A stretch of DNA of 64,000 bases from Bacteroides caccae (GTDB lineage: Bacteria > Bacteroidota > Bacteroidia > Bacteroidales > Bacteroidaceae): contig NZ_CP022412.2 of assembly GCF_002222615.2 (NCBI RefSeq), positions 4,340,001 through 4,404,000 of the forward strand. The letters are read 5' to 3'. Of the stretch, positions 1 through 51,102 are shown in pieces. How positions within the stretch are numbered: position 1 is the first letter of the stretch; each line of letters opens with the position of its first letter. The position numbers and the translations under genes are program-made. The notes below the pieces were generated by a model. That model did not search any database and was not told where the DNA came from. It saw only the letters and a list, made by a program, of their open reading frames with translations.

Positions 1-2797
1 AGCCTACTCCGAAAGAAGTCAGGTTCTGGAAGAAGTGTGTGCCTTGACTCGGATCTACGCGGTAATTAGTCAAACCGGCTTCCACTATCACACGGGCAGC
101 AGAAATATGCGGCCATTTCACCGGAATACCCAACCATGTATCGCTGCTTCCCCAACGTCCCGGACCGACAAGTACATAATTCTTACCTTCATTCAGGAAC
201 TGCCGGTTGATTTTTTCTATTTCCCAAGCAATAGCCTGATTGTTCGAAGCACTGTAACCCTCAGTCTTTACATAGACAATATCGTGAATTTCGTTCATAA
301 TGCCATGTCCCAACGAATTATAAGAACGAAGGATAACGTCCTCATCCCGTATCTCATTCAAATCTTCGTCCAACATTTCCTTACTATCCACAATCGGCCG
401 GATCTGTAACAAATAAAATGTGCCTGTCTTATCCTGTTCGCGACTCATGGTAGCCGCAAACTCAATTTCAACCGGACGGCGCATTTCCTGTTCGCCATAC
501 TTCAGCACTAATTGAAGAATCCGAGGCAACGGGAATACATCATGTTGCAGAATGTTTGCAAACGTAATCACCTTGCGTCCGCCCGGATACAAACCGTCAC
601 GGATAACCTGATCGTAAGGATCGTATGTAGAAGCAATATACCGCAAAGCTCCATCGTTTTCCGCCTCTTTCACATGAAGTTTCAACAAATTGAAGCCATC
701 ATCGATAGAGAAATCATGCCCTGCATTCTTCAAATCCAAGGCATAGAAGCGGGTCTGGGTTTCTTTCAGAGCTATTTCCATTTCGCTGGTCTGTAACACC
801 TGATTGGGGTGATAAGGAGAGAAACGAAGCGTCATACCGCCGTCTACAATATATTTTCCCAATCCCAGTGCCAGATTGACGGTTCCTTCCTCCGCTTTTT
901 CATCACCCAACGGATAATAATTCAGCGAACGAGCCACACCGGACATGGATGGATAATAACGGTCACCATACTGATTGCCGACTACTTCCTGCAAAATAAC
1001 GGCCATTTTTTCCTGATCGATCACATTCGATGTAGCCTGCATATAGGCTTTACTATCCCGAAAATAAACAGAAGCATAAACGCCTTTGATTGCATCGGAA
1101 AGCATACGCAACATTTCATACCGATCGTCCAGATAAGGAATCATATAAGTGTTATAGATTCCGGCAAACGGCTGATAGTGAGAATCTTCCAACAAAGAAG
1201 AAGAACGGATAGCAATAGGCGATTTCACCACATCAAAGAAAGTAAAAAAGTCCTCTACCAGTCTGTCCGGCAATTTTGCTTTCAGGAAATATCGCAATAT
1301 CGTATCATCATCCGCATCCGAAAGCGCAATCTGATACAGATTGTTAATGTCCATAAATTCATCGAATACGTCCGTACAAAGCACCACTGTCTTAGGAATG
1401 GCAACACGGGCATTCTCAAACTCTTCAAATTCGGGATAACGTTTCACCATATTATCTATAAAAGCCAAACCGCGTCCCTTTCCTCCCAACGAACCGTCAC
1501 CGATACGGGCAAAGTTGGAATAACGGTCGAAACGGTCACGTTTAAAGACGGCAACCACTCCCTGATTCTTCATTTTACGGTATTTCACAATCGCTTCAAA
1601 GATAATCCGGCGATGCGCATCCACGTCCTGAAGGCTGCTCCATGTAATAGGTTTCAAAAACTCTGCCACCGGGAACATGGCGCGTGAATAAAGCCAGCGT
1701 GACACATGATTCCGGCTAATATGATACAAGAAAGACTCGGCAGGCACAGCGAACAGGATATTCTGCAATTCTTTCAGATTACGTACACGGGCAATCTCCT
1801 CCCCTGTCTCCGGATTACGGAACACAAAGTCGCCGAAACCAAAGTTATCAGAAACGATACGCCGCAGGTCGACGTCCATTTTCTTGGAGTTCTTGTCGAT
1901 AAAACTAGCGCCATACTTTGCTGCATACGAAGCGTTCTCTGATTCGGAAGACTGGATAATCAACGGTACAAACGGATCATTCTTACGTATCTCAGCGCAT
2001 AACTTAATACCCGCCAGACCGTCTTTTTCGCCACGCTCCACCTTCGGGAAACGTACGTCTGTGATAACACCTAATATATTGTTCTGATATTTACGATAGA
2101 CCTCCATTGCCTCTTGATACGTGCGTGCCAGAACGATTTTAGGACGTCCACGCATACGGAGTGTACGCTGATGCGCATTCAACGCCTCGGTAGAAAATTC
2201 CTGGCTTTGCTTTAGCACGAATTTATACAAGTTGGGAAGAATGGAGGAATAGAAACGGATACCGTCTTCCACCAAAAGAATCAACTGTACACCGACTTCC
2301 TGCACATCATGTTCCAGATTCATCTTATCCTCCATTAACTTAATGATAGAAACCAACAAATCCGTATTACCCAGCCAGCAGAATACGTATTCGAACGCAC
2401 TCAGATCTTCGTTGATAATCCTCTTTGTAATACCATGGCTGAAAGGAGTCAGAATGACAATAGGAATATGCTCATATTTCTCTTTAATGTGACGGCCGAT
2501 GTCGAAACTGTCATTATCACCCGTACTCGGCATACAAATCACCAGGTCGAACGACATATTCTCTAATTGCGTCAAAGCCTCTTCCTCCGTAGATACTTGT
2601 GAGAAACGCGGCGGATAACGCAAGGACAAAGAGGTGTATTCATTGAATATCTTTTCATCAATACGTCCGTCATCTTCCAACATGAAAGCGTCATAAGGGT
2701 TGGCTATTAACAACACGTTGAAAATCCGCCTGGTCATCAGGTTGGCGAACTGCGTATCTTTGAAGTAAAGCTGGTTTAATTTATATTTACTGAGCAT
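1..2797 (-). CDS. Receiver-domain / PEP-synthase-type ATP-grasp fusion protein (3' end outside window)
   Basis: Open from an ATG at 2797 to the left edge (932 codons visible, no stop seen). Residues about 25-160 form a response-regulator-like fold without a phosphoacceptor Asp. Residues about 170-315 look like a second, intact receiver: acidic pair E177/D178, candidate phosphoacceptor D247 in ITDVRFP, S283/S284 and K302. From about residue 430 it resembles the N-terminal nucleotide-binding domain of pyruvate phosphate dikinase/PEP synthase, with a GGKGRGL loop (K440) and a downstream IAIRSSSLLED motif. The phosphohistidine and PEP-binding domains of a true PEP synthase are not seen in the visible part. 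A good AGGAG precedes the start, and a minus-strand TAACTTTG box lies at 2851-2858. It is divergent from gdhA. The homology calls are firm; the biochemical role is unknown. Confidence 0.85.
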   Translation of the reverse strand, partial: MLSKYKLNQLYFKDTQFANLMTRRIFNVLLIANPYDAFMLEDDGRIDEKIFNEYTSLSLRYPPRFSQVSTEEEALTQLENMSFDLVICMPSTGDNDSFDIGRHIKEKYEHIPIVILTPFSHGITKRIINEDLSAFEYVFCWLGNTDLLVSIIKLMEDKMNLEHDVQEVGVQLILLVEDGIRFYSSILPNLYKFVLKQSQEFSTEALNAHQRTLRMRGRPKIVLARTYQEAMEVYRKYQNNILGVITDVRFPKVERGEKDGLAGIKLCAEIRKNDPFVPLIIQSSESENASYAAKYGASFIDKNSKKMDVDLRRIVSDNFGFGDFVFRNPETGEEIARVRNLKELQNILFAVPAESFLYHISRNHVSRWLYSRAMFPVAEFLKPITWSSLQDVDAHRRIIFEAIVKYRKMKNQGVVAVFKRDRFDRYSNFARIGDGSLGGKGRGLAFIDNMVKRYPEFEEFENARVAIPKTVVLCTDVFDEFMDINNLYQIALSDADDDTILRYFLKAKLPDRLVEDFFTFFDVVKSPIAIRSSSLLEDSHYQPFAGIYNTYMIPYLDDRYEMLRMLSDAIKGVYASVYFRDSKAYMQATSNVIDQEKMAVILQEVVGNQYGDRYYPSMSGVARSLNYYPLGDEKAEEGTVNLALGLGKYIVDGGMTLRFSPYHPNQVLQTSEMEIALKETQTRFYALDLKNAGHDFSIDDGFNLLKLHVKEAENDGALRYIASTYDPYDQVIRDGLYPGGRKVITFANILQHDVFPLPRILQLVLKYGEQEMRRPVEIEFAATMSREQDKTGTFYLLQIRPIVDSKEMLDEDLNEIRDEDVILRSYNSLGHGIMNEIHDIVYVKTEGYSASNNQAIAWEIEKINRQFLNEGKNYVLVGPGRWGSSDTWLGIPVKWPHISAARVIVEAGLTNYRVDPSQGTHFFQNLTSFGVG

Positions 2798-38652: not shown

Positions 38653-41600
38653 TTATTCAAGATCCCTTACGCAACGCACGTATCCTTTTTTGTCATTGAC
38701 AAGCCTGTCTTTATCGCCTCCCCACTGCGTGTCCACAGTCGTGACGAATCTAAGATAACCATCAAAATACATCTGATAGCCGGCACTAAATGATCTTCCT
38801 CCGTTCATATCCCGTTTAGAAAATCCTGTCCGAGAATGGATTACCTGTCCATCTTTCATATTCAAAGAAGATAAATTACCACCAAAGTCATAGACTTTAG
38901 GTTTCTCCCGGTCATCCCAGTCAAACAAACTGCCGGCCATTATCATCAGTTCAGCCTCATTAGGCAAGCGCCATGTCCCCAAATCACTCTTATCCGGTTT
39001 CTGATAATAATAAGCACACGGAGAGTTTCCTTTCTCTATATCGCTCATCAAGGTAGTCCAGGTTTCGTAGTAGTATTCACTGCTCCTGTTAGGATTCTTC
39101 AAATCCTTCGGCTTGTCTATCGTATTCGCAATATATTGGGCAACTTCGAACCCTTTGTGATAAATCGTATTAATCTGTGAAGTCTCATTATGTGCCGGAA
39201 GTTCATAAATAGCTCTTGAGGCCCTGGTAGTATTAGCAGGTAAATTGTCAGCCCTGAAAATCAGATACTCATGCTCTGTCCATTTGTTGATCAGTGTCTT
39301 GCTGAGTTCCTTACCTATTTCATCAAGATGATAACTATGATCCTCCGAGGTTTCCAAGATTCCCAAATCCCTGATCAGTCTCACATCCGAAAAAGGAGTT
39401 CTTTCTCCGGGACTTGCCGTTTTCTGGTAATCAAAATTATATAAAGGGGTCATACTATGCGATTCTTCTACAAAGATAATGGCATTAGGGCTGTTCAATG
39501 TCAAGTTGGTACTTCCCATGAAAGCTCTTGAGGTAAATAATGCTGTAGCATTATCCGACGGAGCGTGCCCAACAAGCCTGCTCTTTAACGGCAATACCCG
39601 CTCTGCTACATACAACATGTTTGCTTCACAAATAGAAGGAATATACCATTGCATTTCATTTGCCTGCATCTGTCCGTCACGGTTGTTGTCCCTGTTTCTC
39701 AGGAACGGGGTGAAGCAGGCGTATGTAGCATGATAATACTTCATAGCCAGGTTGGTGTGATCTTTACTTAGTGTCAACTTCGCATTATTGACTTTTGTCA
39801 TAACTTGCCATAAAGTTTTCTCTTTTCCTCTCAACATCGGATCAGGCATTATATTATCGGTTTCATCTAATCCTCCCGTACGTCTGCTCATCAAAGACCA
39901 TGTGTTTGCCCAACCATTGGAATAGTATTTATTATAAAAAGCATCCGCTTCACTGGGACCTCTTACAGACCAATCCAAATCAGGGGTTTCATTCACATTC
40001 TCCACTCCCCAAACGCGCATACCGTCAGGACTGTTGACAAACACCGTTTTTATGGACATTTGCCGAATGGTTACAATAGCTTGATGATAACGTGACTGTC
40101 CGTCAGGAGAAATTTCATGCGACGTGTTCACCAGCAAATCAAACGTACGATCCGGGGAGTTGGCAAAGGTTTTCCACAAATTTTTATCCTTGGGAGCGTT
40201 CTCCTGCATAGGATTTTGTTCGTAGAAATATTCATTGGCATAAACAGTTACTTTACAAAGTCCCGAAGCCGCATTGAATACATAATCAGGTTCATTCATC
40301 AGCCTGTAAAGAAACTGCTCCAGCGAAAGCAGATTAGCACCCGTATCGGAGAAATATTGCATATCCTCGTTTCCATTGTCGGGCAGAGTGCTTGGATGGA
40401 TATAGAATTTGAGCCAGTTCGTATCAGCCTTTTTTTCTTTAGAAGGAATATAATTGTTATTCTTCAACTGTTCCAATTCCGCTTTCGTATAAGAGATAAT
40501 CTTATCACAGAACGGTGTGCGTATGGCAAAAGAAATCATGGCATCATCTTTCAGAGTACCGTCCGGATTGAAGATAGCAAGTTCATCTTTCTTAAAACGC
40601 ATCAGTCCCTGTTCATAATGACAGTCAAAATTGAATGACCGGTGTGCGTCATACACCAGCCCCTCTACTCCGGGAGCGGGTTCCTCCTCTTTCGCCTTGT
40701 CCGATTTTGCTTCTACAACCAGATCATTCATGCCTTTAATGGTCACATTATAGGTATAATGTACGTTACGTTCTATATCATAATCATTGGCCGGATCGTT
40801 TTCCGCCGTATATCCCAGATAAATGCGGTAGGTCACCCTTCCGAAACGCTCGGTAGGAGTATCACCGGTTGCAAGATTCTGACGTAACTCACCTGTAAAT
40901 TCAATATAGGGAGCCAGATCCGGGGCATATTCCGTCTCACCGTTTTGCAGATTAGGTTTGTCAGTTGCACCTGCAACGGGAGACTTCAGTTGCTTCTGTC
41001 TCAGATCATATCCCTTCCTTTCCGCATTATAACCGGGGGAAGCCGGAGAAATAGCCTTCTTCGCGATCTTTCGGTTTTCGGGCATGTAGAATGAAGTGGT
41101 AATATTGTCGGCATCACCCTCGAACTGGAAATATTCCGAAACCCAGTATGATTTTTTGTCCACCCCGTCAGCATCCCATGAAGCAGTCTGATCGGTTCCT
41201 TTTGCATGTTCCGCAATGAAGGTCGATCCCGGCACATTACCAAGACGATATGTTCCAGGCTCAAAAGTGAGTCCGGCAATTGTTTGCAGGTTCAATGTGA
41301 TTTTGGCTTCCGAGCGTTTCAAGGAGACTTCGATTTGTTTTGTAGCGGTAGAAACCGTTACTGTTTGGGTTAGCGACATCAATAAGTTACCATTCGGACG
41401 AAACAGGGTATGAACAGTCATGGCCGCTCTTACTTTTTCCAGGTCTGAATATTTTGAAATCCCGTTTAATACTTCAGGCTCCACATGAAACAACCCGTCA
41501 GCATCCGATTTATAGTTCGCCAGAAGAAACAGTGTCTTTTTCCCTGTGGTAAGACTGATATTTTTCAACAATCCCATGCTGGTGGGCGCATCTGCATCCA

Positions 41601-41913
41601 CTTCACCTGTGGATGTTGTAAGATCAGTTGCAGCCTGAATAAGGTCGGCTCTTGAATACTCACGTGAGCATTCCACGTTACCGGAAGAATTGAAAACCCA
41701 CAGATAAAGGTTATAGATTTTTCTCTCTTCACTTTCCAGTAAGGCGGAACGTGTCTTGGCCGTATTAGCTGCCGTACCGACACTTATATCCACCGTCGTG
41801 GGAACTCCCTCCGTGACACCGCTCCCTTGAAAGATTTCTTCATCCGTACAGGATGCAAAGAGGGGTAGTAACAGCAGAATAAAATAAGTTATTTTCAGCT
41901 TGTATCGTTTCAT
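38653..41913 (-). CDS. Large DUF4906-type fimbrial lipoprotein, candidate tip adhesin
   Basis: 1086 residues, acylated cysteine C22 (LFASC). The N-terminal 300 residues are fimbrillin-like with a KTRSAL site. A DUF4906-type region and long beta-rich segments follow, and the C-terminal part ends in GTWRLPNEAELMIMAG and GYVRCVRD, a formylglycine-enzyme/FISUMP-like fold often seen in Bacteroidetes surface proteins. It is by far the largest subunit and the last gene, as expected for a tip adhesin. I see no von Willebrand A domain as in Mfa5. The adhesin role and the ligand are inference. Confidence 0.82.
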   Translation of the reverse strand: MKRYKLKITYFILLLLPLFASCTDEEIFQGSGVTEGVPTTVDISVGTAANTAKTRSALLESEERKIYNLYLWVFNSSGNVECSREYSRADLIQAATDLTTSTGEVDADAPTSMGLLKNISLTTGKKTLFLLANYKSDADGLFHVEPEVLNGISKYSDLEKVRAAMTVHTLFRPNGNLLMSLTQTVTVSTATKQIEVSLKRSEAKITLNLQTIAGLTFEPGTYRLGNVPGSTFIAEHAKGTDQTASWDADGVDKKSYWVSEYFQFEGDADNITTSFYMPENRKIAKKAISPASPGYNAERKGYDLRQKQLKSPVAGATDKPNLQNGETEYAPDLAPYIEFTGELRQNLATGDTPTERFGRVTYRIYLGYTAENDPANDYDIERNVHYTYNVTIKGMNDLVVEAKSDKAKEEEPAPGVEGLVYDAHRSFNFDCHYEQGLMRFKKDELAIFNPDGTLKDDAMISFAIRTPFCDKIISYTKAELEQLKNNNYIPSKEKKADTNWLKFYIHPSTLPDNGNEDMQYFSDTGANLLSLEQFLYRLMNEPDYVFNAASGLCKVTVYANEYFYEQNPMQENAPKDKNLWKTFANSPDRTFDLLVNTSHEISPDGQSRYHQAIVTIRQMSIKTVFVNSPDGMRVWGVENVNETPDLDWSVRGPSEADAFYNKYYSNGWANTWSLMSRRTGGLDETDNIMPDPMLRGKEKTLWQVMTKVNNAKLTLSKDHTNLAMKYYHATYACFTPFLRNRDNNRDGQMQANEMQWYIPSICEANMLYVAERVLPLKSRLVGHAPSDNATALFTSRAFMGSTNLTLNSPNAIIFVEESHSMTPLYNFDYQKTASPGERTPFSDVRLIRDLGILETSEDHSYHLDEIGKELSKTLINKWTEHEYLIFRADNLPANTTRASRAIYELPAHNETSQINTIYHKGFEVAQYIANTIDKPKDLKNPNRSSEYYYETWTTLMSDIEKGNSPCAYYYQKPDKSDLGTWRLPNEAELMIMAGSLFDWDDREKPKVYDFGGNLSSLNMKDGQVIHSRTGFSKRDMNGGRSFSAGYQMYFDGYLRFVTTVDTQWGGDKDRLVNDKKGYVRCVRDLE

Positions 41914-41950: not shown

Positions 41951-43357
41951 TCATTGGAATGGAGGAAGGTCTACCTCTTTACTATTCCAAGGCTCAACCC
42001 GGTAAATAATCTCTTTATCTGAAGATTCCGGCAGGACTATGAATACTTTATAATCCCGATTCGGATAAATAGGACCGGAATATACTCCGGGAGAAGTCTC
42101 CTCACCAACATCAAGCAGGAAAGTCCTCGTTTTTGTTTGTGATTCATCTCCTCCTGTAAAATAATCCAATGTCAACTGTATTTTCGGGTGATTTTGCTTT
42201 TTCTGCCAGGAATTACTTTCCGGAATATAAGGGGCCAGATACTGGGGCACAACAAACTGTTCGTATAATCGAGCTTCCATTGCCACATAATCAATCTCTC
42301 CCTCGGCAGTAAGGGGAGCCTCGTATACAGTCAATTGTGCTCCTTCATTTTTTACCCCATAAGAATATGTACCTGTATGTTCCATAGCCTTTCCTGTTCC
42401 TGGGGTGGAGGCAGCCAACTGAGTTTTCTCGGAATCATTTTCCCTGAAAGAGGGAGACATCAATACAGGAAAGTTCAAAAAGGAAATCCTTTGGTAATTA
42501 TACGTAACCTGACCGTAACGGGGTGCGCTTGCCAGATATACTCTGATACGGGCAAAATCACGGAATAGGGGAACTGTTATCTCTTGCGCCAGCTTTCCTG
42601 ATGCAGGCAGAACAGATGCCACCGTTTTCCCCGAAAGCAAACTCAAATGTAGTCTGTTAGACACGCCGGGCAAATCTGTCCAAGCGACAACAGAAGTTCC
42701 TTTCCAGTCAATAATCTTTTCATCTGCTGGAGAAGGAGTTACACCGTCATAAGGATTATTCACAGGTAATCCCAAACTTCCATCCTGCTGTTCCTTAATA
42801 ATAGCAGGAAAAGCAGCACCTGCAAATTCCTCTTTGGAGATTTCCTCCGTACCAGCTCCCAGGAAGTCCCATGGAATCTTATTCTGAAGATTGCCTTCAG
42901 GAGTATAATAAGGTAGATCCTTTCCTGTCTGGTTAGGAGCATACAATGCATAAAACTCGGTTTCCCCCTTAGGAATACGTATATTGATCTGATATTGTCC
43001 GTCCACCCCGGTTGAATTGAAGGGAAGCAGTTGATTATACACATACCGATTCAAATCTCTGTTAAAGATCATAAGTGCTATCCTTGGCTGGGCGGGAGCC
43101 TGAGGAAACAGAGTACCGGTCTTAAACCACTGAAAAGGATCAGAGGAAAGTTCATCCAGCAGATCGCTGTCACCGGTTTCAACACCTCTGGTTGTAAGAT
43201 TTAGTCTGACAGTCACAGCATCCTCATCGAAAAACTGTTCCGAAACAGTATCTTCATTTCGGCAGGATACCGAAATAAAGCAAAGAACCAGTGACATCGT
43301 TATCATAGAGTACCTCACAGCCTTCATCATACGAATATATTTAATATTTTTCAACAT
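41951..43357 (-). CDS. Fimbrial accessory lipoprotein (fimbrillin-like)
   Basis: 468 residues from the ATG at 43357; an in-frame TTG at 43369 overlaps the upstream stop and is less likely. The lipobox SVSC gives the acylated cysteine near residue 32. LTTRGVETGD carries a TRG site like that of other fimbrillins, and the C-terminal strand RVEPWNSKEV resembles those of the two upstream subunits. It is probably a minor shaft or tip-complex subunit. It lies between the FimB/Mfa2-like anchor and the large tip candidate in one transcript. Confidence 0.8.
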   Translation of the reverse strand: MLKNIKYIRMMKAVRYSMITMSLVLCFISVSCRNEDTVSEQFFDEDAVTVRLNLTTRGVETGDSDLLDELSSDPFQWFKTGTLFPQAPAQPRIALMIFNRDLNRYVYNQLLPFNSTGVDGQYQINIRIPKGETEFYALYAPNQTGKDLPYYTPEGNLQNKIPWDFLGAGTEEISKEEFAGAAFPAIIKEQQDGSLGLPVNNPYDGVTPSPADEKIIDWKGTSVVAWTDLPGVSNRLHLSLLSGKTVASVLPASGKLAQEITVPLFRDFARIRVYLASAPRYGQVTYNYQRISFLNFPVLMSPSFRENDSEKTQLAASTPGTGKAMEHTGTYSYGVKNEGAQLTVYEAPLTAEGEIDYVAMEARLYEQFVVPQYLAPYIPESNSWQKKQNHPKIQLTLDYFTGGDESQTKTRTFLLDVGEETSPGVYSGPIYPNRDYKVFIVLPESSDKEIIYRVEPWNSKEVDLPPFQ

Positions 43358-43365
43358 AACATTAA

Positions 43366-44283
43366 TCAATCAGTTATAGGAACCACATCAACAGCTTCCC
43401 ATGGTTTTACACTTATACTCAGTGAGAGGGGATTCTGGCGGAAAAACAGTGGAAGAACCGCTTCTTGCCGTCCCGTTATCCGTATCTGCTCGGGATATTG
43501 TGCGATATATTGTGCCACATTTACAGTACAAAGAACCTTGTCACCCTGCATAAGACGGATCATTAGCGGGTCCTTGTCATCAAAGCGCAGGGTATTGAAG
43601 TCAAGCACGAAGCGATCATTCTCCTCGCCTGCGATAAACGGAAGGTCAAAAGAAGTTTCACCAGCCCGCTGTCCGGAAAGATAGAAACGTGCGGAAAGTG
43701 ATTCCATTGTCAGGCGAAAACCTGCCTCCTTGTTCTGCTCAAACCAGGTCTGCGAATTGTTATCATCATCAGAAAGGACTACCGCATGGATTTTCACATG
43801 CTGGGAATAAAGGCGAACTACGTCACGGGACTCGTTCATAACTTTAGATGTAATATCTGTTTCTCCCAAGTATAACCTGTCAAACGTACCGGATGCTCGT
43901 CCGTCCTTTTCCATTAGTTCGGGGCGGGAAACCGACGAACCTTTGTAGCTGTCCTCTTTACCGATAATCGTTTCTGTCAAAGCGTTGCCTACGGCCACCA
44001 CTTTATAATCCCCTTCCGGAAGCGTGACCTCCAGTGGTGAAAGCAGCCGTTCTCTCTCCAGATGATGCTTTTCTATAAGAACTTCGCCTTTGGCATCAAA
44101 AATAAAGACATCAATACCATCCACATATTCCTGTAAATGTTCCTGATTGTCATCAGCCAGATAAGAAAAGACAATCGTGTTGCCAAGACAGCCGCTCAAA
44201 TCGTCATATACCCGATCACAGGCGGTCACGAGGTATAAAGTGAGTAGCAGCCCCAGCCAAGTGGGTATGTATCTTATGTTCAT
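43366..44283 (-). CDS. FimB/Mfa2-family fimbrial anchor subunit
   Basis: 305 residues, lipobox LVTAC with C22. The N-terminal DRVYDDLSGC segment and the transthyretin-like beta-sandwich layout are those of the FimB/Mfa2 family, which anchors the fimbria in the outer membrane and limits its length. The C terminus ends in SVKPWEAVDVV. It is the first gene after the intercistronic terminator that follows the major subunit. The family call is confident; the anchoring role is by analogy with Porphyromonas gingivalis. Confidence 0.87.
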   Translation of the reverse strand: MNIRYIPTWLGLLLTLYLVTACDRVYDDLSGCLGNTIVFSYLADDNQEHLQEYVDGIDVFIFDAKGEVLIEKHHLERERLLSPLEVTLPEGDYKVVAVGNALTETIIGKEDSYKGSSVSRPELMEKDGRASGTFDRLYLGETDITSKVMNESRDVVRLYSQHVKIHAVVLSDDDNNSQTWFEQNKEAGFRLTMESLSARFYLSGQRAGETSFDLPFIAGEENDRFVLDFNTLRFDDKDPLMIRLMQGDKVLCTVNVAQYIAQYPEQIRITGRQEAVLPLFFRQNPLSLSISVKPWEAVDVVPITD

Positions 44284-44476: not shown

Positions 44477-45901
44477 TTAAAGGATAGGGAAGACGTTCAC
44501 AGCAGTCCAAGCTTGTACTTGAACACGAACAATAACATTCACATTTTCATCTTCCAAATCTTCCTGACCACCCGGTTCTGGAGTCACTCCTTCCGGAATA
44601 GTCGGATCTGTATCCACCAGGATACCCTGTCCGTTGTTCAATGTGCTAAGATTCAGATTGATCAGGTAACCACCCTTACCGGCCGGAACATCAGTCGTAC
44701 CGTCTGTTGCACCTTCTGTCTTCGCATAACCGGATATAACTACAAAACGTCTGTCTACAGATACGCCTGCATCACCTGTTTTGAAAACGAAAGCGAGTTT
44801 TGGAGCATTGTTAGTCTTTCCGTAACCGGTAATTCCATTTGAGAAGAAGTTAAATGCCGCAGCTTTTTTACCTGCTCCGAAATCAAAAGCAGTTGCTGTA
44901 AAGTAGGAAGATACATCGGACAAGTCTGTCTTGCCATCAGGTTTGAATGTTCCATTGGTAAAATCATATCTGTCACCTGCATAAGTCTTGGCCCAGAACC
45001 AGTTTGCTTCTTCTTCTACTGTAAGTGCAGGAATAGAAAGTGTTCTGCTGAAACGGTTCATCAGGATACCCTGGTTTGCAGAGGTCACGTCAACAACCTG
45101 CAACCATTTGCTCAAAGCGGCTTTCTTGCTAAGGTCAGACTTACCATCCCACACTTCGTTATTGAAGCCATCGGCAGCAGCTTTGAAAGCCGTCCATGCA
45201 TCAGCACTGGTTTTTCCGTTGTTTTCAGCCTTACCCAGCCATGTCTTGCACCACTGTTCCGCCTCGGCCTTTTTTCCGTCTTTCCAAGTAACTTTGATAA
45301 ATTTGGTTCCAGTCACTTGGAAACGGTTCATACTGGCAGCCAAGGTGAGTTCCGCTTTCTTGACGGTACGCTTATCCTGCTGGGGATCAACGCCATAAGA
45401 TTCGGCACCAACAGTGGTAAGTTCTTTGGAACCTGCATAGATCACTTCATTAATTTTAGCCTTCAACAGTTGTTTGCTAACATCAGACACGGGCTTGTTC
45501 TCAACCAATGCACCTTGAGGGTTTGCAATAACAAGAGCTTTTGTTGCGCCTTTGTCCACGTTAAGGAATTTATAACCTCCTGTCGCTTCACCAGCTCCCA
45601 CGGCGGTAGATGAAGTCAACTTAGTAAAATCATCAGACCCCTTCGTAAACTCCTTCGCAAAGACAATATCATCTCCCTTTAACAAGTACACATGCAGTTT
45701 TTCAACCGTTGCCGGATCACCATTGTTGGCAGTGTTCTGCAAATCGCCCATGGCGGCACGTGTACCGGGACCGGGCAATGCTACTGACATCATCACATCA
45801 ACCGGCTGATTAGCACCCTCCGGTACAACCAGATTTTCTTCATTGTTACATGCAGCAAACAACGCCAGCGAAGCCACTGCAAAATACTTCATTACTTTCA
45901 T
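44477..45901 (-). CDS. Mfa1-family major fimbrial subunit
   Basis: 474 residues. Lipobox FAAC gives C18, and a PGTRAAMGD segment (R48) is the likely protease-cleavage site that opens the subunit for donor-strand polymerisation. The central part is rich in beta strands; the C-terminal strand VQVQAWTAVNVF is the expected donor or final strand. Position first among the subunit genes, clean lipobox and typical length fit the shaft-forming Mfa1 group. The gene is followed by a terminator that should make it the most abundant product. Confidence 0.88.
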   Translation of the reverse strand: MKVMKYFAVASLALFAACNNEENLVVPEGANQPVDVMMSVALPGPGTRAAMGDLQNTANNGDPATVEKLHVYLLKGDDIVFAKEFTKGSDDFTKLTSSTAVGAGEATGGYKFLNVDKGATKALVIANPQGALVENKPVSDVSKQLLKAKINEVIYAGSKELTTVGAESYGVDPQQDKRTVKKAELTLAASMNRFQVTGTKFIKVTWKDGKKAEAEQWCKTWLGKAENNGKTSADAWTAFKAAADGFNNEVWDGKSDLSKKAALSKWLQVVDVTSANQGILMNRFSRTLSIPALTVEEEANWFWAKTYAGDRYDFTNGTFKPDGKTDLSDVSSYFTATAFDFGAGKKAAAFNFFSNGITGYGKTNNAPKLAFVFKTGDAGVSVDRRFVVISGYAKTEGATDGTTDVPAGKGGYLINLNLSTLNNGQGILVDTDPTIPEGVTPEPGGQEDLEDENVNVIVRVQVQAWTAVNVFPIL

Positions 45902-45969: not shown

Positions 45970-47454
45970 TTATTCATTTACCCTTACAGCCTTGAATGCT
46001 TTCGCACGGTTACATCCCCGAGCCGCTGCCTCTTCCAACAGTTTCTCTGCCTTCCTCCAATCACCTTTCATATCATAGGCAATTGCCATTGGGAACAGGA
46101 CACGACTGTCTTCTCTTACCACTTCCAATACCTGCAACGCACCGTCCGCATCCTTGCCATATTTCAACAAGGCATTGGCATAATTCAAAACCGCCACAAT
46201 GTCCCCCGGAAACTGCTCGTATGCCTTCTTATATACCGGCAGAGGATTCTCCCCCCGGGAAGCATACAATCCGGCCAGCTGGTACATTTCGTACAAGCTA
46301 AGACATTCGGGCTTGGTCTCAAAAACTCCGGGGAGTTCCTCCGACGTATAAGGCCTTACATCAAAGCTGAGACTGAATGTTGTACGCCGCAGAGCCGGGT
46401 AAAACTCTTCCAAAAGAATATGGTAAGTCTTATCATTATCTAACTCACGGATAGCCGACTCACGTTCCGTATCATTTGAGTTATGTTCAATGATAAAAAG
46501 GATTTTGTCCTTATTGGAAAGAGTGGAACCACTGACTGCTGCCTTAAGACCTTCCCAGTCTTCCCCAACCCCTTCGGTACGATAAACCGGTGCTTTCTTG
46601 AGGGCGGGATATTGACTGGAAATATAATTTGAAAGGGTTTGAGTCCGTCTTTGCGCAAGGGATTTGTTATAATTAAAATCTCCTTCGGGAGAAGCGTAAC
46701 CTTTTATATACACATCCTTTAGCTCCGCCCCTTTAATCAATAGGTTTTCAGATACAAATTGGCCGAGTCCGGCAAGCTCCTGACGGTTATCCGCAAAGGT
46801 CTTGCGAAGATCGTGTTGTGCCACGGGAAAAGTCACTTTACAATCAAAAGAATCCTTGTAGCACTTGACCAGCACCTTTTCCGGTTCGATAAAATCGTAG
46901 GCATAATCTTTCGCTCCAAAGAGCGGAATACCGGCTTGCAATGCAATACCATCGTTTTTACTCATACCACATTCGGCACAACCATATAACTTTTCATCCA
47001 CAACAAGATGACCATCTGCCATCCAACTTTCAAAAGGGAAACTGCTTTTGAATGTCAAGGGTGTTTCTTTCAGCTCCTTGACAGAATGCACCTCACCGTA
47101 GCCAAGCTGGTCACTCTTCACATTATGCAGGGTCTTGCGACGTTTAACAACCTTATACCTCCTTCGGCCGGAAATGCATACAGGTTCCAGTTCCACACTT
47201 TTTTTTCCATCCACTGAAACAAAACGGGGAGAAATATACATCATTTGCTGGCTTTTCAACTTTTCGACAAGCCCTATCGAAAATTCTATATCCAATTTAT
47301 CCCCGTCCGCGCTTCTCTCTACACGGCTTCCGGAATAATCCCCGTGCAGACCATTAGCTGACGATAAAGTTTCCTGGGCAAAAACCAACATGGGAAACAT
47401 TCCCAGGCAGCCCATAATAAAAATTTGTTTCTTATAATATTGTAACGGTTTCAT
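45970..47454 (-). CDS. DUF3868 protein with OmpA-like C-terminal domain
   Basis: 494 residues with a signal peptide (about 1-26). The N-terminal half is DUF3868, found in Bacteroidales fimbrial loci. Around residues 230-350 an OmpA/MotB-like peptidoglycan-binding segment appears (KDVYIKGYASPEGDFNYNKSLAQRRT). The last about 100 residues contain TPR-like helices. It probably ties the fimbrial export or anchoring apparatus to the cell wall. It is placed between DUF3575 and the major subunit, as in other loci of this kind. Confidence 0.85.
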   Translation of the reverse strand: MKPLQYYKKQIFIMGCLGMFPMLVFAQETLSSANGLHGDYSGSRVERSADGDKLDIEFSIGLVEKLKSQQMMYISPRFVSVDGKKSVELEPVCISGRRRYKVVKRRKTLHNVKSDQLGYGEVHSVKELKETPLTFKSSFPFESWMADGHLVVDEKLYGCAECGMSKNDGIALQAGIPLFGAKDYAYDFIEPEKVLVKCYKDSFDCKVTFPVAQHDLRKTFADNRQELAGLGQFVSENLLIKGAELKDVYIKGYASPEGDFNYNKSLAQRRTQTLSNYISSQYPALKKAPVYRTEGVGEDWEGLKAAVSGSTLSNKDKILFIIEHNSNDTERESAIRELDNDKTYHILLEEFYPALRRTTFSLSFDVRPYTSEELPGVFETKPECLSLYEMYQLAGLYASRGENPLPVYKKAYEQFPGDIVAVLNYANALLKYGKDADGALQVLEVVREDSRVLFPMAIAYDMKGDWRKAEKLLEEAAARGCNRAKAFKAVRVNE

Positions 47455-47502
47455 GATATACTTTTTTGCATAAAAAATAAAAAATCCGGGTACGTAAGAA
47501 GA

Positions 47503-48099
47503 CTATTTCAACATATAAATAATGGAAATCGCCGCTCTGGTGGGACCGATATAATCAGCATCCCCCTTCCCCTCCTTTTTTCCGCAGGTAGTACACTTGT
47601 ACTTATCATAACGGGTATGTACATAACCGATGCCCAAGGAGGCCTCTATATTGAAACGATTGGAAACGACCCACTGATAGCCGGCACTCAGACCACCACC
47701 CCAAAAATATCCTTCATAACGGTGCTCCTTCATTTTCCCGTCTCCCTTTTGAAGAACAAAAGGTACATCAATGCCACCGATGTTCATCTGCCCTCCATGC
47801 GCGTGCAACCCGAAGAACCAGCCATTGAAAACATCACACGTCCAGTAACGTAGCTCAGGCTGTACCAACCAATGACTAGCCTTCTTTGTTTTATACCGGG
47901 AGGAGGTAGCATCCTGCGTGTAGAAAAAGAAATTCATCCCCACTTGGGTGTCAAGCGTCCATTTCCGTCCCATTGAAAACTCAAGGGAAAGATTCGGAGT
48001 CTTCAGGGCATCATACGCCAAATTATTTTTTATTGCCACCTTCTGTGCAAAAGAATGGGTGCAAAAAAATAAAAAGAAAAGAAAAATAGTCCTCTTCAT
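47503..48099 (-). CDS. DUF3575 outer-membrane protein
   Basis: 198 residues from the ATG at 48099 (MKRTIFLFFLFF..., signal peptide about 1-18). An in-frame ATG at 48192 lies upstream of the promoter box and is rejected. The product is beta-strand-rich with aromatic girdle residues, like a small outer-membrane barrel. DUF3575 genes usually accompany DUF3868 and fimbrillins. It is the first gene of the fimbrial operon. Confidence 0.85.
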   Translation of the reverse strand: MKRTIFLFFLFFCTHSFAQKVAIKNNLAYDALKTPNLSLEFSMGRKWTLDTQVGMNFFFYTQDATSSRYKTKKASHWLVQPELRYWTCDVFNGWFFGLHAHGGQMNIGGIDVPFVLQKGDGKMKEHRYEGYFWGGGLSAGYQWVVSNRFNIEASLGIGYVHTRYDKYKCTTCGKKEGKGDADYIGPTRAAISIIYMLK

Positions 48100-48154
48100 A
48101 CTAAAGATTTTTATCATTATTATTAATACTCTGTTTCTCGTTTTTTTGATGTTG

Positions 48155-48162
48155 CAAAAGTA
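48155..48162 (-). promoter_or_regulatory. Promoter -7 box of the fimbrial operon
   Basis: Minus-strand TACTTTTG, TAnnTTTG type, lies about 55 bp before the DUF3575 ATG. A second candidate, TACATTTG, is at 48299-48306 on the same strand. Confidence 0.45.
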
Positions 48163-48327
48163 CTGCGCTGCTATCGCATTGGCATTATACAAAAAAGACA
48201 GAAATTAACAAATACATGACTATTTTAGAAAAAATGTCATTATTGTGTAAATGTATCATACTCACAGAACCCAATGTGAAGTCAAAAAGCCGGTCAATCA
48301 AATGTAAAGCAATGCAAAATATCTATT

Positions 48328-48990
48328 CTATATAAGAATATAACGAAACAGATAACAAGTATCTTTACTCGTCAAAATATCTTTATCTTTTAAGATTAGA
48401 TATAAATCTTCACAGGACCGCTTGCCTACACCATGTAATTTGCCCAATGCGTCAAAACCATTTTTCTTGATAAACCGCAACAGGTCCTCCAACAGATAGA
48501 TATTATACCTCCTAAGGTTCCGTAAGATTCTCGGTTGTATCTCCAAATATTCCAAAGGAGTAGAAAGTTTATCCACACATTCCGCAGGTATATCATATTC
48601 TTTGAGTGGAACAAAGACTTTAAATTGTCCGCAAACAACATTGTTCCTGTGTAAAACAGCCTTATAGTTTCTATACCGGAGATGGACTGATTGAAGCCTT
48701 TGCTGTTCTTGAACCAGACTTTCCCAACAACGACTTACTTCCCTTACGCCTTCCTCATACATGAAAATTAATTCTCGTATGGAAAGATTATACCTGTAGG
48801 ACAGATCGGATATATCAGTCCCTGTCATCAGGGAATAAAAAATATCCTGCCTCTTTTCATCCCTTACATACATGGACATCATTTTGACAAGATCCTTATA
48901 AAGACGGAAACAATATACCGACAAGCCATGTGCACGAAGAGAAATAAAAGTCTTTTCCTTCTTGCTTACTTTTTGAATAGAAGATTCCAT
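48328..48990 (-). CDS. Regulator combining a sigma4-like HTH with an RNA polymerase alpha-CTD-like domain
   Basis: 220 residues with no signal peptide. Residues about 46-85 (RQDIFYSLMTGTDIS...RYNLSIREL) resemble a sigma-70 region 4-type helix-turn-helix. Residues about 141-204 resemble the alpha-subunit C-terminal domain: LSTPLEYLEI, then RRYNIYLLEDLL, then GVGKRSCEDLYLIL, matching its two helix-hairpin-helix-like turns that contact DNA and activators. No known protein with this exact order comes to mind. It lies between the AraC gene (44 bp) and the fimbrial operon (228 bp), all on the minus strand, so control of the fimbriae is likely. The domain calls are moderate; the function is inference. 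Confidence 0.7.
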   Translation of the reverse strand: MESSIQKVSKKEKTFISLRAHGLSVYCFRLYKDLVKMMSMYVRDEKRQDIFYSLMTGTDISDLSYRYNLSIRELIFMYEEGVREVSRCWESLVQEQQRLQSVHLRYRNYKAVLHRNNVVCGQFKVFVPLKEYDIPAECVDKLSTPLEYLEIQPRILRNLRRYNIYLLEDLLRFIKKNGFDALGKLHGVGKRSCEDLYLILKDKDILTSKDTCYLFRYILI

Positions 48991-49034
48991 ATTGCTTAAT
49001 ATTGTATTAAAAAAGACAGGTATTTATCATACGG

Positions 49035-49889
49035 TCAAATTTTATCTTTTTTGCTTTCGCTCCGCAATTCTGTCGGAGTTAGCCCAAACAGTCTTTTACA
49101 ATAGCAGGTGAGATGGGCGGGAGAACTAAATCCAAATTCCATGGCTATTTCCCGGAAAGCAACATCCGGATCACAGACTTTCTCACGAACAATCTCAGCC
49201 TTCCGTTCCTGCATCCATTGATAGGGGCTCTGGTTAAAACAATCTTGGAACTTGCGGTTGAAAGAGCGTTCTGACACACAACACAAACTGGCAAATTCTT
49301 TCACAGATTTCACTTTCCGATAATTTTCCAGCACAAAATCTTCAAATTTTCTTCCTACTCCGGATGTTCCTGAAAAGAAGGAAGCAAGCTCGGGCTTGGT
49401 ATAAAATCCCCTCAATACAAGTATTATTTCCTGTTGTTTGAGAATGTGCATATGCCTACATAATAATCCTGCATCCAGATAAATAAGCAACTGCCTTAAC
49501 ACGTGAAGCAGCGGTTTGCGAATTAGAAGAATACAGTTATCCCTCTCTCCCAACTTGTCACGGGAAATAGAATCAAAATACATTTTGTCACAAGCCGTTA
49601 TCTGTTTGTTCCAAAACAATAAAAGACATTCTGCCGGTACAACACTTTTAATCCGGTTCTCCTCCCGCTGTGGAATAAGGAGCATCCTGTTTCTGAGAAG
49701 AGAAATATGATGTTCCTGCCCTATATCAACTAACAATTCTCCTTTCAACAGGAATAAAATACAAAAACAGCTGTCATTATCAACTTGCCCACATTCTTGT
49801 GCAGCCAATTTATATCGAGTAAACCCACTTGCAAAATTAAGCTGATAATTAAAGCAGGAGCGGTGCTCAGACAAATTAAGTAGTTTCAT
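49035..49889 (-). CDS. AraC-family transcriptional regulator
   Basis: 284 residues. The N-terminal about 170 residues are a cupin-like sensor of no clear ligand type. Two helix-turn-helix units follow (SVKEFASLCCVSERSFNRKF near residue 195, and the EIAMEFGFSSPAHLTCYCKR signature near 245). It is the most upstream gene of the fimbrial block and is probably its regulator, together with the alpha-CTD-like protein. Confidence 0.88.
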   Translation of the reverse strand: MKLLNLSEHRSCFNYQLNFASGFTRYKLAAQECGQVDNDSCFCILFLLKGELLVDIGQEHHISLLRNRMLLIPQREENRIKSVVPAECLLLFWNKQITACDKMYFDSISRDKLGERDNCILLIRKPLLHVLRQLLIYLDAGLLCRHMHILKQQEIILVLRGFYTKPELASFFSGTSGVGRKFEDFVLENYRKVKSVKEFASLCCVSERSFNRKFQDCFNQSPYQWMQERKAEIVREKVCDPDVAFREIAMEFGFSSPAHLTCYCKRLFGLTPTELRSESKKDKI

Positions 49890-49917
49890 GTTATATCTTA
49901 AAATAATTATGTTTAGA

Positions 49918-49939
49918 AAACATCGTAATCAAGATGTTT
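49918..49939. repeat. Short inverted repeat upstream of the AraC gene
   Basis: AAACATC and GATGTTT flank an 8-nt centre. It may be an operator for the AraC protein. The rest of 49890-50223 holds only promoter boxes for yicC. Confidence 0.35.
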
Positions 49940-50076
49940 GTTTTTAACAAAAAAGACATATATTTTCAGATATCAGACAATTAAAACATGCTTATAATTT
50001 CACGCCTGTTTCCCTGATTTTTCTGCAATCAAAGTTTTTTATTGCAGCTATTTTTAGATGTATCATTGAAAATAGT

Positions 50077-50084
50077 TATATTTG
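50077..50084 (+). promoter_or_regulatory. Distal -7 box of yicC-gmk-nadD
   Basis: TATATTTG, TAnnTTTG type, about 140 bp upstream of yicC. Confidence 0.35.
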
Positions 50085-50198
50085 CGACTAGTTTATTAGG
50101 ACAGATATGAGCCAGCATTAAAATCGGCATATAAGTTTCTGATAATCAGATATAAATATAAAATTACATGATTATTTCCAATTCTTAAAATATTCGTG

Positions 50199-50214
50199 TA
50201 GTTTTGCGCAAAAC
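50199..50214 (+). promoter_or_regulatory. Proximal -7 box overlapping a 14-bp palindrome
   Basis: TAGTTTTG (50199-50206) leads into the perfect palindrome GTTTTGCGCAAAAC (50201-50214), which covers the predicted transcription start just before the yicC ATG at 50224. Confidence 0.45.
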
Positions 50215-50223
50215 TTTAAAAAT

Positions 50224-51102
50224 ATGATACAGTCAATGACAGGTTACGGCAAAGCTACTGCCGAACTTCCAGAAAAGAAAATAAACGTAGAAATCAAGTC
50301 GCTCAACAGCAAGGCAATGGATTTATCCACTCGCATCGCCCCGGCTTATCGTGAAAAAGAAATAGAAATCCGTAACGAGATTTCCAAGGTTCTGGAGCGC
50401 GGAAAAGTAGATTTCAGCCTGTGGATCGAGAAAAAAGAGGGCGCCGAGAGTGCAACACCTATCAACCAGGCATTGGTGGAAGGATATTACAAACAGATTC
50501 AGGCTATCTCGGAAAACATCGGCATTCCTGTCCCTACGGATTGGTTTCAAACGTTGCTCCGTATGCCGGACGTGATGACGAAAACGGAAATCCAGGAATT
50601 ATCGGAAGAGGAATGGAAAGTAGTGCACGCCACGGTGCTTGAAGCGATTAATCATCTGGTAGATTTCCGCAAACAGGAAGGTGCCGCACTGGAAAAGAAG
50701 TTCCGCGAAAAGATTGCGAATATCTCGCTGTTGCTCGAAAAGATCGCTCCTTATGAGAAAGAACGGGTAGAAAAGGTGAAAGAACGCATCACGGACGCAC
50801 TCGAAAAGACGTTGAGCGTAGATTATGACAAGAACCGTCTGGAACAGGAATTGATTTATTATATCGAAAAATTGGATGTAAACGAAGAAAAACAACGCCT
50901 TGGCAATCATCTGAAGTATTTTATTAGTACTATGGAAAGCGGTAACGGACAGGGGAAAAAGCTCGGATTTATCGCACAGGAAATGGGCCGGGAAATCAAC
51001 ACATTAGGTAGCAAGTCCAATCATGCGGAAATGCAGAAGATTGTTGTCCAGATGAAGGATGAACTGGAACAGATCAAGGAACAGGTACTGAATGTAATGT
51101 AA
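50224..51102 (+). CDS. yicC: YicC family protein
   Basis: 292 residues beginning MIQSMTGYGKA, the family signature, with a C-terminal ATP/phosphodiesterase-like helical region ending GREINTLGSKSN. The family has been linked to RNA decay (endoribonuclease activity in E. coli). It is followed 20 bp later by gmk, a conserved gene order in many bacteria. Confidence 0.94.
   Translation: MIQSMTGYGKATAELPEKKINVEIKSLNSKAMDLSTRIAPAYREKEIEIRNEISKVLERGKVDFSLWIEKKEGAESATPINQALVEGYYKQIQAISENIGIPVPTDWFQTLLRMPDVMTKTEIQELSEEEWKVVHATVLEAINHLVDFRKQEGAALEKKFREKIANISLLLEKIAPYEKERVEKVKERITDALEKTLSVDYDKNRLEQELIYYIEKLDVNEEKQRLGNHLKYFISTMESGNGQGKKLGFIAQEMGREINTLGSKSNHAEMQKIVVQMKDELEQIKEQVLNVM

Follow-up and report, generated by a model that had tools for sequence, protein, structure and literature searches.

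REG, a protein encoded between an AraC-family gene and a row of fimbrial genes in Bacteroides caccae, is by profile and model comparison a carrier of a C-terminal homologue of the RNA polymerase alpha-CTD, preceded by a helix-turn-helix (HTH) domain that resembles sigma region 4 (sigma4). REG probably helps the neighbouring AraC protein to switch on surface-structure genes. Our main reading, to which we assign a probability of about 0.4, is that it is an accessory transcription factor dedicated to the neighbouring AraC, co-activating the fimbrial operon. The relevant features of the window, i.e. the whole 64-kb stretch of DNA that was analysed, are collected in Table 1.

Table 1. Genes, protein segments and DNA sites of the REG locus (nucleotide positions in the window; segments of REG as residues)
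Feature	Position	Strand	Remarks
Tandem TTGTCTG / ATGTCTTTTTT site	49949..49980	-	21-bp spacing; upstream of AraC gene
AraC-family regulator	49035..49889	-	Pfam HTH_18 63.7 bits; 44 nt upstream of REG
Single TGTCTTTTTT copy	49009..49018	-	just upstream of REG
REG	48328..48990	-	220 aa; sigma4-like HTH N-terminal, alpha-CTD homologue C-terminal
REG, sigma4-like HTH	residues ~26-95		continues into long helix (~45 residues)
REG, linker	residues ~118-131		modelled with low confidence
REG, alpha-CTD homologue	residues ~138-217		
TGTCTTTTTT at putative fimbrial operon promoter	48191..48200	-	
TACTTTTG	48155..48162	-	fits Bacteroides -7 box TAnnTTTG; 37 nt downstream of motif GTC
DUF3575 protein, first fimbrial gene	47503..48099	-	PF12099 223 bits; start at 48099 picked from homologues, longest ORF starts at 48192
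DUF3868/OmpA/TPR protein	45970..47454	-	DUF3868 23.9 bits, cut-off 27
Mfa1-like fimbrillin	44477..45901	-	NF038041 48 bits, under cut-off 130
Mfa2-type anchor protein	43366..44283	-	PF08842 130 bits
DUF5042 protein	41951..43369	-	PF16445 1030 bits, whole profile matched
Large FimA-related protein	38653..41913	-	PF06321 30.7 bits

Domain structure of REG

The REG-family profile matched alpha subunits in the PDB and, in 325 of 393 genomes sampled from the order, reading frames of rpoA size; alpha-CTD ranked first for the C-terminal domain in profile, hhalign and structure comparisons alike. Likewise, the structure prediction and fold search that an earlier note on this DNA had proposed as a check returned an alpha-CTD fold, the model superposing on alpha-CTD structures at about 2 Å. 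When PF03118 was searched against the window's own genome, rpoA scored highest (81 bits), followed by REG (18.7 bits); as a single sequence, REG scores under the Pfam cut-off for this model.

The likeness to alpha-CTD comprises the fold, the helix order and a set of DNA-contact residues. By alignment, R154 corresponds to what we take to be R265 of E. coli alpha, and G189, position 191 and S192 presumably correspond to G296, K298 and S299. Residue 154 is R in all 13 close REG rows, which include near-duplicates (P0014/P0016 and P0021/P0022), and R or K in 39 of the 41 other rows. G189 and S192 are invariant across the 13 close rows; all of them have K or R at position 191, where 36 of the 41 others carry V, T, L or H. 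As judged from this alignment, the alpha-CTD DNA-contact residues are kept in the REG branch, whereas most paralogues are unlike alpha-CTD in missing the K298 equivalent. Of the 13 close rows, 11 have E or D at position 150, which we take to be the equivalent of the sigma4-facing E261. REG itself differs from alpha-CTD in a 4-residue insertion between helices and an R at the N268 equivalent, and from the alpha subunit in having no attached alpha N-terminal domain.

The N-terminal domain was modelled alone, since the structure-match list of the full-length protein was filled mostly by the C-terminal domain. Sigma4 was the commonest match among the nearest structures listed, with moderate scores and with other HTH folds present too, and a profile alignment with sigma4 (PF08281 type) was collinear over 59 columns; at E ≤ 1, no Pfam sigma-region match was found in REG. 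The earlier note had recognized both a sigma4-like HTH and an alpha-CTD pattern in this product, and profile and model bear out the two domains: the N-terminal HTH is confidently modelled, its homology to sigma4 less sure. Sigma region 2, responsible for -10 recognition, is absent, with no room for it beside the two domains, and consequently REG is not classed as a sigma factor. It is further unlike one in the long helix after the HTH and in the acidic recognition helix of the window protein (net charge -2, as against 0 to +5 in 27 sigma4 helices of the same genome); across the other close REG rows this charge runs from -2 to +5. Pfam detected no HTH_18/HTH_AraC domain in REG itself, only in the neighbouring gene.

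The REG family

REG belongs to a Bacteroidales family without a name, from which 27 relatives were listed by single-protein search and 91 by profile search. No curated model seen names the REG architecture: PF03118, rpoA and HTH_17/excisionase models recur, none spanning the whole protein, and 41 of 54 aligned members match PF03118, 17 HTH_17 and 12 HTH_21 (E ≤ 0.01). A family member (E ≤ 1e-12) is found in 20 of 158 Bacteroides genomes and in 6 of 399 genomes sampled from the taxonomic family. In its own genome REG is single copy, the sole other match having an E value of 0.013.

Most relatives have an additional N-terminal segment of HTH_17 type. The residues ahead of the M38 column number 98-120 in the members outside the REG branch, four of which are truncated at 58, and 21-49 within it, too few for that domain. 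An N-terminus of HTH_17 size is accordingly missing from the AraC-linked REGs of the window, L012, L013 and L016 in the alignment, and also from the corresponding ORFs of L011 (223 aa) and G546 (205 aa). HTH_17 was presumably lost by the REG branch rather than never gained. Bacteroides paralogues with HTH_17, sigma4-like and alpha-CTD segments (e.g. P0030, P0053, P0061) belong to the family by full-length profile match, and differ from REG in the extra N-terminus and the mostly lost K298 equivalent; those of their loci that were inspected contain neither an AraC partner nor fimbrial genes. The architecture is thus shared with a wider family and not peculiar to REG. A PMC search, with most subscription papers and preprints outside its scope, turned up no mention of a stand-alone sigma4/alpha-CTD regulator in the titles and abstract openings listed.

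A phage origin of REG was rejected, as a PHROG search gave no match for REG or two paralogues, and only one of 21 candidate stretches from a viral collection (L016) encodes a relative. On that contig (L016:1625-7134), AraC and REG lie beside a phage-terminase-like gene, as judged by eye. Elsewhere, a family member in a Tannerellaceae MAG is split into two ORFs and is probably broken (L015:9493-10264), and a paralogue of HTH_17 type adjoins an ECF-sigma-like gene (L142:8756-10240, by eye). Two further sequences (L009:1260-1922 and L010:1264-2097) match the REG N-terminal domain and have a coiled-coil-like tail with no alpha-CTD match, according to a profile scan for L010 and inspection by eye for L009.

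Association with AraC and fimbrial genes

The minus-strand order in the window is AraC gene, REG, fimbrial gene row. The row has the Mfa2 anchor and fimbrillin-type genes of an Mfa/FimA-type operon and is read as one operon because its genes stand in a row. REG comes after the AraC gene, at gaps of 4-44 nt, in all six REG-branch loci, namely the window, B. congonensis (L011), B. fluxus (L012), B. finegoldii (L013), L016 and G546 (in L139), where the contigs of L011, L012 and L013 are those in G435, G441 and G440; other REG-like relatives lie outside this count. The six AraC proteins share 47-95% mutual identity. Fimbrial genes are found near REG in five of these loci: the operon is directly downstream of REG in the window and in B. 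congonensis, and directly upstream, with an OmpA gene downstream, in B. fluxus and B. finegoldii, while L016 has a DUF3868-like ORF upstream. The exception is G546, which in place of the fimbrial genes has OmpA genes and a gene for a lipoprotein that looks collagen-like by eye and gave no Pfam match.

Conversely, REG accompanies five of eight AraC orthologues (at least 50% identity) among the matches listed in 158 Bacteroides genomes, with up to 15 candidates scored in each. The three without it are those of G442 and G446 and, in the same genome as the window, a 77%-identical paralogue. This paralogue (G000:C1:146201-147043, L190) has an OmpA-like neighbour and a degenerate upstream site. With tblastn (E ≤ 1), no REG remnant was detected in seven AraC loci without REG, two weak matches falling elsewhere in the loci. 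G541 keeps the fimbrial operon and its promoter motif and has no REG.

In none of 11 loci with other members of the family (L030, L031, L032, L033, L140, L141, L142, L143, L014, L015 and L195) did blastp find a homologue of the window's DUF3575, DUF3868 or Mfa proteins, or an adjoining homologue of its AraC; this search detects window-like AraC only. L032 and L033 hold partial members, the L015 member is broken, and L014 and L140 have short upstream sequence; the closest HTH_17-bearing relatives, P0023-P0028, are outside the set. In L141, the family member lies 5 kb from a gene whose large product has a C-terminus of AraC type. These loci count against a family-wide fimbrial role and go part of the way towards the refuting outcome named in the earlier note, homologues without a link to fimbrial or surface genes. 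The tie to AraC and fimbriae suggested in the earlier note, together with the neighbourhood analysis it proposed, thus holds for the REG branch, with AraC in six of six loci and fimbrial genes in five; it does not extend to the 11 loci of other members, and G541 has fimbriae without REG.

DNA sites and promoter geometry

Two GTC half-sites 21 bp apart precede the AraC gene in all six AraC-REG loci (degenerate in L016 and G546), and this tandem arrangement is new in this analysis. In the window, the second of the two half-sites is TGTCTTTTTT, which occurs three times in the 64 kb (0.49 expected), always with the same orientation and each time ahead of one of the genes AraC, REG and DUF3575; none of 100 shuffled controls reached three copies. 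No copy was found in the examined stretches upstream of REG in L011, L012, L013 and L016. A scan with the strict tandem pattern returned 9 sites in 8 of 158 Bacteroides genomes, as against 3 in 158 for the reversed-pattern control. Four of the nine sit upstream of AraC in AraC-REG genomes, and the fifth such genome, G546, escapes the strict pattern owing to a degenerate first half-site. G541 has two, one upstream of DUF3575 and the other ~0.4 kb ahead of an AraC-like gene. The matches in G492, G509 and G524, inside unrelated or unverified ORFs, were taken to be due to chance.

The sigma-ABfr consensus, as quoted in PMC7366714, is TAnnTTTG with TTTG near -33. The strict promoter TTTG-N21-TAnnTTTG has 0 matches in the window. 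A spacing of 36/37 nt from TGTCT to TAnnTTTG was found in 6 cases in 365,188 bases, with ~0.7 expected, all in the loci considered here: upstream of DUF3575 in the window, B. congonensis and G541, at the second B. congonensis and G541 sites, and upstream of the G546 lipoprotein gene. This excess is a guide and not a clean test, since the 18 sequences, partly redundant, were chosen through this work and the spacing was noticed first in the window and L011; in the same scan, an unrelated 68-nt spacing also gave 3 cases. The DUF3575 gene of B. finegoldii provides a further 37-nt case with a degenerate motif. No TTTG lies between motif and -7 box in five of the six cases (by eye). Upstream of AraC, no TAnnTTTG was found up to 80 nt downstream of the motif (window, L011, L012, L013 and G546), and the OmpA genes just 3' of REG in L012, L013 and L016 likewise showed no 37-nt geometry. 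An invertible promoter was rejected, the 13 inverted pairs in 47400-50300 being short or imperfect, with none neatly bracketing a promoter.

About 0.8 kb upstream of AraC in B. congonensis (L011:8176-8260), a tandem TGTCTG site is followed at 37 nt by TAATTTTG. The 63-aa ORF behind it may be a small gene that has escaped annotation and belongs to the same regulon.

Proposed role of REG

Direct repeats of 21 bp are typical of AraC-family sites and fit an AraC-family dimer, E. coli AraC at araBAD being an activator with tandem sites. The REG locus is like these systems in its AraC-type neighbour, its half-sites and the position of the proximal one near the place of the -33/-35 box, and to our knowledge none of them has a counterpart of the second protein, REG. 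We infer which protein binds the motif, all binding and the sign of the effect; the mimicry or displacement of RNA polymerase contacts suggested in the earlier note is likewise conjectural. AraC would bind the tandem TGTCT-type half-sites and give DNA specificity; it is the likelier reader of the motif because the 21-bp half-sites fit its dimer and G541 has the site without REG. In front of the fimbrial operon, the proximal half-site would place AraC in a class-II-like activator position, from which class-II activators touch sigma4 and alpha-CTD. REG, devoid of the HTH_17 of its relatives, may be recruited to the promoter together with AraC, its alpha-CTD-type domain holding AT-rich DNA adjoining the site and its sigma4-like domain contacting RNA polymerase or AraC. 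The fimbrial operon would be activated more strongly as a result, with araC-REG expression probably tuned as well. REG is accessory and dispensable for this promoter type, since G541 has two such promoters and a fimbrial operon without it. Several findings count against co-activation: the three AraC orthologues without REG, the araC promoters and the three OmpA promoters without the 37-nt geometry, the acidic recognition helix of the window protein and the three cases of 68-nt spacing.

A wider and more tentative proposal, less probable than the main reading, is a detachable RNA polymerase arm. The stand-alone sigma4-like/alpha-CTD proteins of Bacteroidales would include one branch that gave up its DNA-binding domain and became a cofactor of an AraC activator, providing in trans those upstream contacts that are lacking at promoters with a good -7 and no evident -33 box. 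How activators of Bacteroides engage an RNA polymerase with a weak -33 element is poorly known, and a family whose members consist of detached polymerase-type domains, together with its likely partner, site and promoter geometry, opens this question to direct testing. It also suggests a novel mode of control for the fimbriae of gut commensals.

With both polymerase-type domains and no HTH_17, REG looks like an AraC-recruited cofactor, which could also work in the opposite sense. As a decoy or anti-activator, it would offer AraC a detached sigma4/alpha-CTD surface and block engagement of RNA polymerase, limiting fimbriae by feedback. The presence of both part types usually touched by class-II activators, the acidic residue at the presumed E261 equivalent and the position just 3' of araC agree with this, whereas a pure protein decoy needs no conserved alpha-CTD DNA-contact residues; we regard it as rather unlikely and prefer the co-activator. 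The alternative that the TGTCT motif is recognized by REG, acting as a sequence-specific DNA-binding factor, with AraC working elsewhere, draws on the tandem site being upstream of araC in 6/6 loci with REG and 0/3 without (one degenerate trace). It is made doubtful by the G541 motif at two promoters without REG and by a repeat spacing typical of AraC-family sites. Finally, an ordinary HTH factor whose C-terminal helix-hairpin-helix is alpha-CTD-like with no RNA polymerase-type function would fit the sub-threshold single-sequence Pfam score and the weak RecR_HhH and HHH_5 matches in some family members, but is improbable in view of the first rank of alpha-CTD in all three comparisons and the residue pattern that the REG branch has retained.
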